From positions 1,395,001 through 1,459,000 of the forward strand of contig CP067346.1 of NCBI GenBank assembly GCA_021561035.1: DNA of 64,000 bases, given 5' to 3'. Under the pieces are notes generated by a model. It did not search any database. It saw nothing but the letters and a program-made list of their open reading frames with translations, and was not told where the DNA came from. The translations under genes and the position numbers were made by a program. This document shows, piece by piece, positions 10,309 through 18,065 of the stretch (position 1 is its first letter; each line of letters starts with the position of its first letter). Source of the DNA: Clostridioides sp. ES-S-0054-01 (lineage in GTDB: Bacteria > Bacillota > Clostridia > Peptostreptococcales > Peptostreptococcaceae).

Positions 10309-11753
10309 AAGATTTCATTTATAGTTTCTCCAATTATTTTTATTCCATTTTCAATGTCTTCAAAAGATAACCTAGAAAATCCAAGTCTTAAAGTGTCAGA
10401 GCCAGAGTTATCTGTAAAAAATAAATCTCCAGGCATAAATATAACATTTTTTTCATAACATTTTTCTAATAGAGCTCTAGTATCTATATTTTTTAGTTTT
10501 ATAAATATATGCAAACCACCATCACCCAAGATGTATTCTGTTTTTATATATTTTTTTACACATTCATATGCAAAGTTGAATTTGTCTCCATAGAACTTAC
10601 GTATTTTTTTTACGTATTTTTCAAAACCACCATTACTCAAGTAATCAAATAGAATTCCCTGGTCCAAAAAGGATACATGTATGTTTCTACACCTTTTCAC
10701 ACTTTCCAATTTATCTATTACTTTTTTATCTGCAAATATCCATCCAATTCTCATTCCAGGAAATAAAATCTTTGAAAAACTACCGATATATACAACACCA
10801 TTATTCATATTATCAAGAGAACAGATAGGAAATATATGAGAACTATTGTAGAGTAATTCTTCATTAAATCCATCTTCTATAATTGCTATGTTATGTTTTT
10901 TCATAAGATTATAGAATTTGTATCTATTTTCAGGAGTCATTACGATACCTGTGGGATTGTGATAAGAGGGTGTAATATATGCAAACTTTATTTTATTTTT
11001 GTACTTAATTAAACGGTCTTCTAACATATTGAAATCCAAACCATCTTCATGTATATCTACACCTAAAATATTGAGATTATGTGATTTCATGATTTTTATA
11101 GCAGTATTATGAGTAGGATTTTCACATATTATGTAATCTTTTTCTTGGGTAAAAGACGACATAATAATATCAAAGCCTTCTGTAAATCCATTTGTTATTA
11201 GTATATCTTTATTACTTATATCAACACCCTTGTTTGTCATATATTCTAATAAATAATCAATAAGGGGCTTATAACCTTGTGCGTATCCATAGTTAAGTAA
11301 TTTATGACCTTCTAATGAGATTCTATTTAAAAAGGATTTTTTGAATTCTTCCATATCAAATAAATCTCCATCTGGAGAAATACTTTTAAAGGAAATTAAG
11401 TCAGAGCTCCAAGGGATTTCACTTTTTATAATATCTAATTCACTAGCTTTTTTAGAGTATGTATTCTCTAAATAATCCCAGTTTAATGACCATGTAGTAC
11501 TTGAAGGCTTATTATTTGATTTGACAAATGTACCTTTTCCTGAAATAGAGTAGATTAACCCTTCTGATTTTAATTCTTCATAAGTCAAAACTACAGAATT
11601 TCGGCTAACTTGTAAAAGCTGACTAAGCTCCCTTGTAGAAGGGAGCTTACTATTGTCTGAAACTAGTCCTTTTGATATCATATCACTTATATAATTTTTA
11701 ATTTGTATATAAATTGGTTCATTATCATTTAATTTTAGATTTGAAAATATCAA
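10305..11753 (-). CDS. MocR/GntR-family regulator with aminotransferase domain
   Basis: A 482-residue regulator of the MocR subfamily. Residues about 12-78 are a GntR winged helix-turn-helix (KLPSTRELSQLLQVSRNSVV). Residues about 115-482 are a fold-type I aminotransferase-like domain with Asn266-Pro, Asp293 and PLP lysine Lys328 in GSFSKILFPGMRIG. MocR proteins sense PLP adducts of amino acids. It lies 24 bases downstream of ddl on the same strand; DdlR-type MocR proteins in other Firmicutes respond to D-alanine and control ddl, so the same role is inferred here. The PLP lysine is intact, so PLP binding is expected. Confidence 0.85.
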   Translation of the reverse strand: MIFSNLKLNDNEPIYIQIKNYISDMISKGLVSDNSKLPSTRELSQLLQVSRNSVVLTYEELKSEGLIYSISGKGTFVKSNNKPSSTTWSLNWDYLENTYSKKASELDIIKSEIPWSSDLISFKSISPDGDLFDMEEFKKSFLNRISLEGHKLLNYGYAQGYKPLIDYLLEYMTNKGVDISNKDILITNGFTEGFDIIMSSFTQEKDYIICENPTHNTAIKIMKSHNLNILGVDIHEDGLDFNMLEDRLIKYKNKIKFAYITPSYHNPTGIVMTPENRYKFYNLMKKHNIAIIEDGFNEELLYNSSHIFPICSLDNMNNGVVYIGSFSKILFPGMRIGWIFADKKVIDKLESVKRCRNIHVSFLDQGILFDYLSNGGFEKYVKKIRKFYGDKFNFAYECVKKYIKTEYILGDGGLHIFIKLKNIDTRALLEKCYEKNVIFMPGDLFFTDNSGSDTLRLGFSRLSFEDIENGIKIIGETINEIF

Positions 11754-15163: not shown

Positions 15164-15224
15164 AAAATGACTGTCTTAGAGAATTATAAAATTATATTTT
15201 ATAATTCTCTAAGACAGTCATTTT
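15164..15224. terminator. Perfect 29-bp inverted repeat, bidirectional terminator
   Basis: Arms 15164-15192 and 15196-15224 are exact inverted copies around a 3-base loop (TAT). Each strand ends its stem in TTTT. It separates two convergent genes, so it most likely ends both transcripts. The perfect 29-bp stem is unusually long for a terminator. Confidence 0.85.
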
Positions 15225-16043: not shown

Positions 16044-17483
16044 TTAAGTATTAGTATACTTTCTAATTAACCTACTAGCCTTAGATTGTGAAATTTCAAG
16101 GTGTTTGGCTACTTTATAAGAACTGCCAAATTTTTCATAAGCATCCAAAATTATATTTTTTTTGTACTCCATAATTAAGGTATCAAAATTTTTATTTTTA
16201 TAATCAATAGATTTTGAGTCAGATATAGTAACTTTATTAATTTGGGATATATGTACTTTATTTCCATCATTGATATGTATATTTTTTGTAAGGATGTTTG
16301 GTAAATCATCTATTGTTATATGATTATTTGTGCAAGTAAGTAAGATTTTTTGAATTATATTCTGCAATTCTCTTATATTACCTGGAAATTCATAATTTGC
16401 AATAACATCCACAGCTTCTTTGGAAATAGTTTTATTTAGGTTGAAGTCACTTGAGTATATATTAAAATAATATTTTATAATATCTACTAGATTATCCCTT
16501 CTTTCTCTAAGAGGAGGCAATTTTATTTCTATAACATTTAATCTATAATATAAATCTTCTCTAAATTTTTTTTCTTTTACCTTTGAAACTAAATCAGAAT
16601 TTGTAGCAGATATAATCCTTATATCGACCTTTTTGTTTTTTAAGCTTCCAACTGGAGTAAAAGTTTTATCCTGTATTAATTGCAAAAATTTTGCTTGTAG
16701 ATTTTGTGGTATATCTCCTATTTCGTCTAGAAAAAGAGTTCCTCCATCAGCTAATTCTACAAGCCCAGCTTTACCTTTGGTATTTGCACCTGTAAAAGCA
16801 CCTGGAGTATATCCAAAAAGTTCAGATTCAAGGAGTTGTGGAGATATAGTTGCACAATTTATGGTTGTAAATGGACCATTGGCTCTATTACTGTTATGGT
16901 GTATATACCTAGCAAGTGAACTTTTTCCTGTTCCAGACTCTCCTAATAAAAGTACACTTACATCCGTTTTAGAAACATGATTTACTGTGTTTATGATTGG
17001 TCTCATTGCTATTCCGTCCATAATTACAGTATCTTCAATTCTAAGGGAAGTTCTGTATAGTGTTTCTACTTCGGATTTATATTTTTTTACTTGTTTTTTT
17101 GTATCTTCAAGTTTATTTTTTATATTATTAAGCTCAGTTATATCTCTACAATTTTCAACAATGAATTCTAAATTTCCATTTTCATCAAATACAGGAGTAG
17201 CAGTTATGATGAGTTTTTTTCCTGTTTGAGTATCTTGTTCTAGTGAAAATTTAGACTTTGTTTTTAATACGGATGGTATGGGACTTTTTGTTGAATATCC
17301 AGATTCCTCTAAGAAAGAAACATTTTTTCCTAAAATATCTTCTTTTTTTAGACCATAATTTTCTTCAAATGCTTTATTACAATATATTATTATTCCTTTA
17401 TTATCAGATACACATATTTCGTCATGAGAGGCTTCTAATATCTTTTGATAAAACTCCAAATCTAATTTTAAATTCAAATCCAT
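16044..17483 (-). CDS. Sigma-54-dependent transcriptional activator (PAS-AAA+-Fis HTH)
   Basis: A 479-residue enhancer-binding protein. It has a PAS sensor (about 10-115), a short coiled coil, a sigma-54 activation AAA+ domain (Walker A GESGTGKS 181-188, sigma-54 contact loop GAFTGA 228-233, Walker B TLFLDEIGD about 249-257), and a C-terminal Fis-type helix-turn-helix (SYKVAKHLEISQSKASRLIR). It remodels sigma-54 polymerase at GG-N10-GC promoters. Such a promoter lies divergently at 17740 with a palindrome at 17600, so that is its likely target. The PAS ligand is unknown. AGGAGG precedes the ATG by 11 bases. Confidence 0.9.
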   Translation of the reverse strand: MDLNLKLDLEFYQKILEASHDEICVSDNKGIIIYCNKAFEENYGLKKEDILGKNVSFLEESGYSTKSPIPSVLKTKSKFSLEQDTQTGKKLIITATPVFDENGNLEFIVENCRDITELNNIKNKLEDTKKQVKKYKSEVETLYRTSLRIEDTVIMDGIAMRPIINTVNHVSKTDVSVLLLGESGTGKSSLARYIHHNSNRANGPFTTINCATISPQLLESELFGYTPGAFTGANTKGKAGLVELADGGTLFLDEIGDIPQNLQAKFLQLIQDKTFTPVGSLKNKKVDIRIISATNSDLVSKVKEKKFREDLYYRLNVIEIKLPPLRERRDNLVDIIKYYFNIYSSDFNLNKTISKEAVDVIANYEFPGNIRELQNIIQKILLTCTNNHITIDDLPNILTKNIHINDGNKVHISQINKVTISDSKSIDYKNKNFDTLIMEYKKNIILDAYEKFGSSYKVAKHLEISQSKASRLIRKYTNT

Positions 17484-17599
17484 TTTTCTGTTTTCCTCCT
17501 AAATTTTTAATGATATGTTAACATAGGTTTAATTTATTAAATACAATTAAAGTTTAATATTTATATATAATACATAAGTTTTAGTCTATTTTAAACTTG

Positions 17600-17621
17600 A
17601 ATAAGTTATATATAACTTATT
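17600..17621. promoter_or_regulatory. 22-bp palindrome, probable enhancer site of the sigma-54 activator
   Basis: Perfect palindrome with half-site AATAAGTTATA, centred about 130 bases upstream of the -24/-12 promoter. This is the usual place for an activator binding site, and it also lies upstream of the activator gene itself. Confidence 0.6.
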
Positions 17622-17739
17622 TTACAATTAAAACAAGTCTAAATCAACTTGAAGTATGTATGAGATAAGTATGAAAAAATTGAAATTTATTAGTACTGTT
17701 GAAAATACTTTTTTTGTGTCGATATATATTGTATTAAAG

Positions 17740-17755
17740 TGGCGTAATTTTTGCT
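17740..17755 (+). promoter_or_regulatory. Sigma-54 (-24/-12) promoter
   Basis: TGGCGTAATTTTTGCT fits the consensus TGGCAC-N5-TTGCW with invariant GG-N10-GC spacing. It lies divergent from a sigma-54 activator gene and upstream of a decayed gene. Confidence 0.75.
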
Positions 17756-17805
17756 CAACAAAAACGATGTGTATTGACTTAAATAAAATTAGAGGGGAAT
17801 TTAAA

Positions 17806-17979
17806 ATAGGGGAAAAAATAAAGGGTATGTATTTGTCACAACAGCAGGAATACTAAGGGTTACACTTGGATTATTTGGAAAGTTTTTCTTTGGGGAAGCT
17901 ATTTGGGGTGATGTTAATACCATCAGTAGTAGCATTTAATCTTTCTTATGATGGAATAAGAATGTTTTATAAATACTAA
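17806..17979 (+). pseudogene. Frameshifted small membrane-protein gene downstream of the sigma-54 promoter
   Basis: After AGAGGGG, a 58-codon stretch would encode a hydrophobic peptide if read in two frames: (M)GEKIKG in frame 1, VFVTTAGILRVTLGLFGKFF in frame 2, then LIPSVVAFNLSYDGIRMFYKY back in frame 1. The expected start codon is ATA. Shifts lie near 17825-17830 and 17905-17912. First and last segments share a frame, so the two indels cancel. The original family is not recognised. A strong terminator follows directly. Confidence 0.6.
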
Positions 17980-18033
17980 ATAACTATAGAGAGAACTATA
18001 TTTATATAATTCTTTCTATAGTTATTATTTTTT
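17980..18033. terminator. Terminator after the broken sigma-54 target
   Basis: Near-perfect stem AATAACTATAGA-AGAA / TTCT-TCTATAGTTATT followed by ATTTTTT. It can also serve the radical SAM gene converging from the right. Confidence 0.8.
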
Positions 18034-18065
18034 GAGATTATTTTATTTGTAATAAATATGCATTA

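Follow-up and report, generated by a model that had tools for sequence, protein, structure and literature searches.

The question raised by this locus is what a sigma-54 activator gene is kept for when the target gene beside it is dead. The window, meaning the whole 64,000-nt stretch of DNA that was analysed, corresponds to positions 1395001-1459000 of the single contig of a 3.93-Mb genome (G000:C1), and was compared with seven other Clostridioides genomes (G001-G007, referred to as sisters), which together with G000 make up the genus comparison set. The features of the locus, in window coordinates, are:

16044-17483, minus strand: predicted xhaQ, a PAS-AAA+ sigma-54 activator gene, named from its domains, its position and the rhaT promoter
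17600-17621, no strand: perfect 22-bp palindrome, whose core at 17603-17618, AAGTTATATATAACTT, is upstream site 1 and matches AAGTY-N6-RACTT
17635-17650 (G000:C1:1412635-1412650), no strand: upstream site 2, AAGTCTAAATCAACTT, matching the same motif
17740-17756, plus strand: drifted -24/-12 (SigL) promoter of rhaT, TGGCGTAATTTTTGCTC, departing at 17744 and 17756
17806-17887, plus strand: N-terminal scrap of rhaT, with ATA at the start-codon position and one base missing
17878-17887, plus strand: GAAAGTTTTT, the junction of a 728-bp deletion; in the sisters its copies are at offsets 73 and 801 of the gene
17888-17979, plus strand: C-terminal scrap of rhaT, 82% identical to residues 268-302 of the intact protein
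17963-17974, plus strand: TGTTTTATAAAT, the junction of a second deletion, of 184-242 bp by sister spacing
17979-18027, plus strand: terminator hairpin, also found 3' of rhaT in the sisters

An earlier note on this DNA, made from its letters and open reading frames, had described a divergent PAS-AAA+ activator gene, and this gene is real. Its product carries PAS and sigma-54 AAA+ domains (PF00158, E 3.4e-67), with an HTH_50 match at E 6e-5 that falls under the Pfam cut-off, and from its position and the rhaT promoter it is the predicted orthologue of CD1412/XhaQ. XhaQ and rhaT were listed under "Transporter" for Clostridioides by Nie et al. 2019 (PMC6615313), and Soutourina et al. 2020 (PMC7438776) gave CD1413/rhaT a mapped start and CD1412/XhaQ as its regulator, with a fold change in sigL::erm of 0.31, and 0.19 by qRT-PCR. 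The rhaT promoter of G001 is the published CD1413 promoter of C. difficile 630 letter for letter, and G001 is therefore taken to be C. difficile proper and G000 a sister species. The window has in common with the published regulon (PMC6615313, PMC7438776) an XhaQ-type activator, a divergent gene and a divergent -24/-12 promoter, here with upstream sites; it differs in that its target is a relic rather than an intact rhaT, and its promoter has drifted. The window pair is thus, as far as sequence can identify it, the predicted XhaQ-rhaT (CD1412-CD1413) SigL regulon with its target gene destroyed. One review calls CD1412 a putative c-di-GMP phosphodiesterase (PMC8428550), a label that conflicts with the activator domains found here and with PMC7438776. 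CodY boxes have also been given for the CD1412 orthologue of one strain, with a table value of 0.29 (PMC12772354), and these would fit a nutritional role.

The "small membrane protein" that the earlier note placed downstream of the promoter is no gene at all; it is made of N- and C-terminal scraps of a 314-codon EamA/RhaT transporter. Comparison with other strains, which that note had proposed, shows rhaT intact at the same place in all seven sisters, and a search of the genus with 17484-18060 gave a match in 8/8 genomes, fragmented in the sisters. The G001 product matches the EamA transporter family (PF00892, E 1.3e-37), while the nearest NCBIfam models (amino-acid/amine transporter, YddG) stay under their cut-offs. 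In the window the start codon is replaced by ATA (17806-17808), as had been observed, and a single base is lost shortly after it. A further 728 bp (sister length) are lost between 10-bp repeats, GAAAGTTTTT, both copies of which are exact in four of the seven sisters. The second deletion lies between 12-bp repeats, TGTTTTATAAAT, and removes the gene end and 3' flank; both copies are present with at most one mismatch each in four sisters and not so in the other three. Another 6 bp are missing within the C-terminal scrap. Slippage between short repeats would be the natural cause of both deletions. Since the 1-bp and 728-bp losses together preserve the frame, they had been taken for two compensating frameshifts; the frame is indeed kept, but only one of the two is a loss of a single base and the other is the large deletion.

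The loss of a single base can be a sequencing or assembly error, and the whole broken frame might be put down to this. This reading is hardly credible, as there are several independent lesions: two deletions with repeats at their junctions, about 0.7 and 0.2 kb long, the 6-bp loss and substitutions, in an assembly that is one contig and 99.48% complete. The suggestion that the activator has lost its local target therefore stands. When a substitute for RhaT was sought in G000, only one match was found outside the relic, a protein of 27% identity. Taken by itself, then, the window finding is an ordinary pseudogene in a published regulon.

The regulatory DNA in front of the relic has fared differently in its parts. 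The perfect 22-bp palindrome noted upstream was confirmed; of the perfect palindromes listed for the window it is the longest, and across the eight genus genomes it is perfect in five and one base off in three. A -24/-12 element is found at the rhaT position in 8/8 genomes, and this joint conservation shows that the two are not there by chance. The promoter had been called a canonical GG-N10-GC element at 17740; its GG (17741-17742) and GC (17753-17754) are present, but the coordinate was one base off and the element is not fully canonical. Where all seven sisters have TGGCA...TTGCTT, the window reads TGGCG...TTGCTC, departing at two of the 15 sister-invariant positions, whereas sites 1 and 2 do not depart from sister-invariant positions at all. 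At the position equivalent to 17744, G in the window, all 30 published SigL promoters have A (PMC7438776, Table 4).

These observations bear on the proposal that the region now makes a short terminated RNA, which in its fuller form would be an XhaQ-controlled regulatory RNA of about 260 nt that starts near 17766 and ends at the terminator. The upstream sites, the leader and the terminator do survive, in agreement with it. The promoter, however, is off at two sister-invariant positions, one of them the A common to all 30 published SigL promoters (PMC7438776), and no Rfam family matches the rhaT locus at gathering score; we regard such an RNA as very improbable. A mir-556 match over the rhaT terminator, at 25 bits against a gathering score of 84, was dismissed.

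Searching the genome for the palindrome, as the earlier note had also suggested, turned up another promoter, this one intact, with sites of the same type. The 22-bp palindrome itself, with up to three mismatches, occurs at three other places in G000 against three in the reversed control, and none of them has a -24/-12 within 450 bp. The 16-bp core, when up to two mismatches are allowed, occurs at 34 places against 29 in the control, so that single sites mean little; among the 15 of these 34 that were examined, only rhaT and 3486156 had a -24/-12 within 450 bp. The putative XhaQ site was worded as clustered AAGTY-N6-RACTT, a wording chosen after both Clostridioides loci had been seen, which makes the co-occurrence of sites there partly circular. 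Singly the motif is not enriched in G000 (40 matches against 73 in the control), and only two places, the rhaT locus and the end of the proline reductase (prd) operon, have matches clustered within less than 200 bp. The features at the second of these, outside the window and in G000:C1 coordinates, are:

3486446 (L140:10247), antisense to the TSUP gene: SigL promoter TTGGCATGTTAATTGCTTT, a strict -24/-12
3486156, 3486240 and 3486271: three XhaQ-type sites, all exact motif matches

These sites and the promoter are flanked by genes for a single-stranded-DNA-binding protein on one side and a TSUP/TauE permease (PF01925) on the other; the permease gene, the last of the operon, comes after the proline racemase gene prdF. 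The promoter is aimed, antisense, at the 3' end of the permease gene 126 bp away. G000 has 42 strict -24/-12 promoters and the reversed control has none; drift keeps the rhaT promoter out of this set. One of the 42, that at the prd end, has exact sites in the 400 bp upstream of it, three in number, and two others have a single one-mismatch site each. The 42 exceed the 30 listed for C. difficile 630, and several of them are internal to ORFs or lack an 80-aa ORF that begins within 450 bp.

The prd-end sites and promoter are present in all eight Clostridioides genomes with distances constant within 2 bp. The exact sites number 3, 2, 1, 3, 2, 0, 3 and 1 in G000 to G007 and the remainder have one mismatch, so that G005 has one-mismatch sites only. 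No Rfam match was obtained for the prd end. Small ORFs beyond the antisense promoter are only short frames antisense to the conserved TSUP gene, the first at least 195 bases downstream, and on the antisense strand of L140 10000-11255 there is no sigma-70-like match, the nearest being at 11510, inside prdF. The start of the predicted antisense RNA folds into a hairpin, the best structure of which is not the same in all eight genomes.

The recurrence of the site can also be followed beyond the genus. An XhaQ-like protein (E <= 1e-120) is encoded in 21 of the 71 genomes of the family. The 22 xhaQ-like loci comprise 20 with a divergent rhaT (counting the relic in the window), 19 with exact site(s) and 21 with a -24/-12. 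Exact XhaQ-type sites at xhaQ loci are spread over six genera, and the pair thus reaches five more genera than were described for the published XhaQ-rhaT regulon (PMC6615313, PMC7438776), where a second, antisense target is likewise not described in the parts consulted. The loci lacking an exact site are L214, with one one-mismatch site, L218, which also lacks rhaT and the promoter, and L219 (G003:C157), a second activator-rhaT pair without XhaQ sites whose activator is 57% identical to XhaQ; L211 has sites but no rhaT. In Romboutsia weinsteinii only two of the 48 motif matches are less than 200 bp apart, and both are in the xhaQ-rhaT gap. Two sites with 10-40 bp between them occur in 21/71 genomes, 18 of them XhaQ bearers, against 1/71 in the reversed control, and the XhaQ bearers without this pattern are G028, G032 and G063.

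The gene order in another lineage links the activator gene to the prd-end promoter as well. In one genome of genus g10, G033, xhaQ itself stands at the end of the prd locus (L245:5598-9600) among three TSUP/TauE genes, in the order prdF, TSUP, antisense -24/-12 with two exact sites, xhaQ, two TSUP genes, a methyltransferase gene and a sigma-54 activator gene. The order in G000 is prdF, TSUP, antisense -24/-12 with three sites, SSB, methyltransferase and sigma-54 activator, the last of which we call CdsR from the gene order and the cdsB promoter in PMC7438776. The rhaT gene of G033 is at another place, where it has a -24/-12 of its own, two sites (one exact, one with a single mismatch) and no xhaQ, and it adjoins a zinc-dependent phospholipase gene as in the window. 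The activator gene therefore adjoins one or other of the two promoters in different lineages, and, on one reading, the prd end formerly carried a copy of xhaQ, of which the promoter is a remnant. The second target is not general, as a survey of 30 TSUP loci, one per genome in 30 of the 49 genomes that gave a match, shows: an antisense promoter with exact or one-mismatch sites is found at nine (the eight Clostridioides and G033) and is absent from 21, of which 12 are in XhaQ-bearing genomes and five lack a flanking prdF and may represent different TSUP genes. Leaving aside G033, none of the 12 XhaQ-bearing genomes examined outside Clostridioides has a promoter of the prd-end type at its TSUP locus.

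The prd-end promoter could be real and yet answer to another activator, such as PrdR or the nearby CdsR-like protein. The genes for both are within about 9 kb, and SigL promoters usually adjoin their activator gene (PMC7438776). PrdR acts at prdA with the same sigma factor in the same operon (PMC7438776, Table 4), where it drives the sense transcript. The 400 bp upstream of the prdA and cdsB promoters (L190, L189), however, have no AAGTY-N6-RACTT site with up to one mismatch, unlike the prd-end promoter; the PrdR motif consists of TGT/ACA repeats according to Nie et al. (PMC6615313); and in G033 it is xhaQ that neighbours the equivalent promoter. Control by another activator is, in our judgement, quite unlikely.

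A transcript that may correspond to the predicted one has been reported. An RNA antisense to CD630_32360, taken from a list of new transcripts in the context of Hfq RIP-seq, is repressed in infection, whereas prd is induced; the prd operon and the antisense RNA overlapping its 3' end are regulated inversely (PMC11651100). As described, this RNA lies where the transcript predicted for the SigL promoter would lie, and on its strand, and it would then start at that promoter. CD630_32360 is called prdF in PMC11651100, while CD32360 is a TSUP transporter gene, down 554-fold along with the prd genes in an rpoN mutant, in PMC12069270, and prdF is CD630_32370 in PMC6311696. The text examined of PMC11651100 names no promoter, sigma factor or activator for the antisense RNA, and a literature search, mostly of papers outside subscription, found no stated link between it and SigL or XhaQ.

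There is also the reading in which the whole unit is decaying, XhaQ included: rhaT would have gone first, the activator would be drifting, and the prd-end promoter would be a leftover of a former xhaQ copy. The drift of the rhaT promoter and the place of xhaQ at the prd end in G033 agree with this, as does a mild excess of amino-acid changes in the XhaQ of the window lineage. Codon changes in xhaQ private to that lineage are seven nonsynonymous and seven synonymous (7/14), against 11 and 58 summed over the seven sisters (11/69; Fisher p 0.0099, exploratory), an excess that suits decay as well. The xhaQ frame is nevertheless open, with Walker A, GAFTGA and LFLDEI all kept. Window XhaQ is 87-94% identical to the genus copies, and its dN/dS of 0.105-0.137 against the sisters is near the 0.082-0.130 found among them. 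At the prd end, G000 has the promoter and all three sites free of damage, the genus has retained them, and for C. difficile an antisense RNA has been reported from this place (PMC11651100). Decay of the whole unit is rather unlikely on this balance.

We therefore consider it likely that this is an XhaQ-rhaT regulon whose target has been destroyed and whose activator is kept most likely for a second SigL target at the prd end. Beyond the relic, the recurring site and the conserved second promoter, which can be read directly from the genomes, XhaQ would bind at both promoters and the antisense RNA would lower prd or TSUP expression. The PAS domain of XhaQ would sense a signal and XhaQ, at clustered AAGTY-N6-RACTT sites, would act on SigL polymerase at the rhaT and prd-end promoters; these steps are modelled on known sigma-54 activators in addition to the site evidence. 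The antisense RNA would pair with the end of the prd/TSUP message and lower its level, as the published inverse pattern suggests. In the window species the rhaT arm would be gone and the antisense arm the only one left, so that XhaQ probably drives the prd antisense RNA as its only evident remaining target. More tentatively, and with somewhat less than even confidence, XhaQ may be a switch between transport and fermentation in Clostridioides, turning on both RhaT and the prd/TSUP antisense RNA and working against PrdR, whose sense transcript is likewise made with SigL; the window species would keep the antisense arm only.

Sigma-54-dependent regulatory RNAs are known elsewhere, among them Qrr, CrcZ and GlmY. 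In these an activator and sigma-54 drive a non-coding RNA, as is proposed for the prd end, although they act in trans and the prd-end RNA would be antisense to the end of an operon. Proline reduction is one of the main routes by which C. difficile gains energy in the gut. What is of interest here is the second XhaQ-type promoter, which points antisense into the proline reductase operon. As a conserved SigL promoter with XhaQ-type sites, it offers a candidate controller for the prd antisense RNA. It also illustrates that an activator is not necessarily orphaned when the gene next to it has died, and that a search for its site can bring to light unannotated targets overlooked by scans confined to start codons; the promoter search in PMC7438776 covered 200 bp upstream of start codons.

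Two minor observations may be added. Three genomes of genus g13 (G042, G044 and G046; L234, L235 and L236), which have no XhaQ-like protein at E <= 1e-120, carry two-site clusters upstream of a gene for a membrane-like protein of 163-168 aa, and another activator may share the motif. Within the window, a 20-pair inverted repeat at 15171-15217, with T-runs on both sides and thus terminator-like on either strand, sits between a HAD hydrolase gene and a phospholipase gene.
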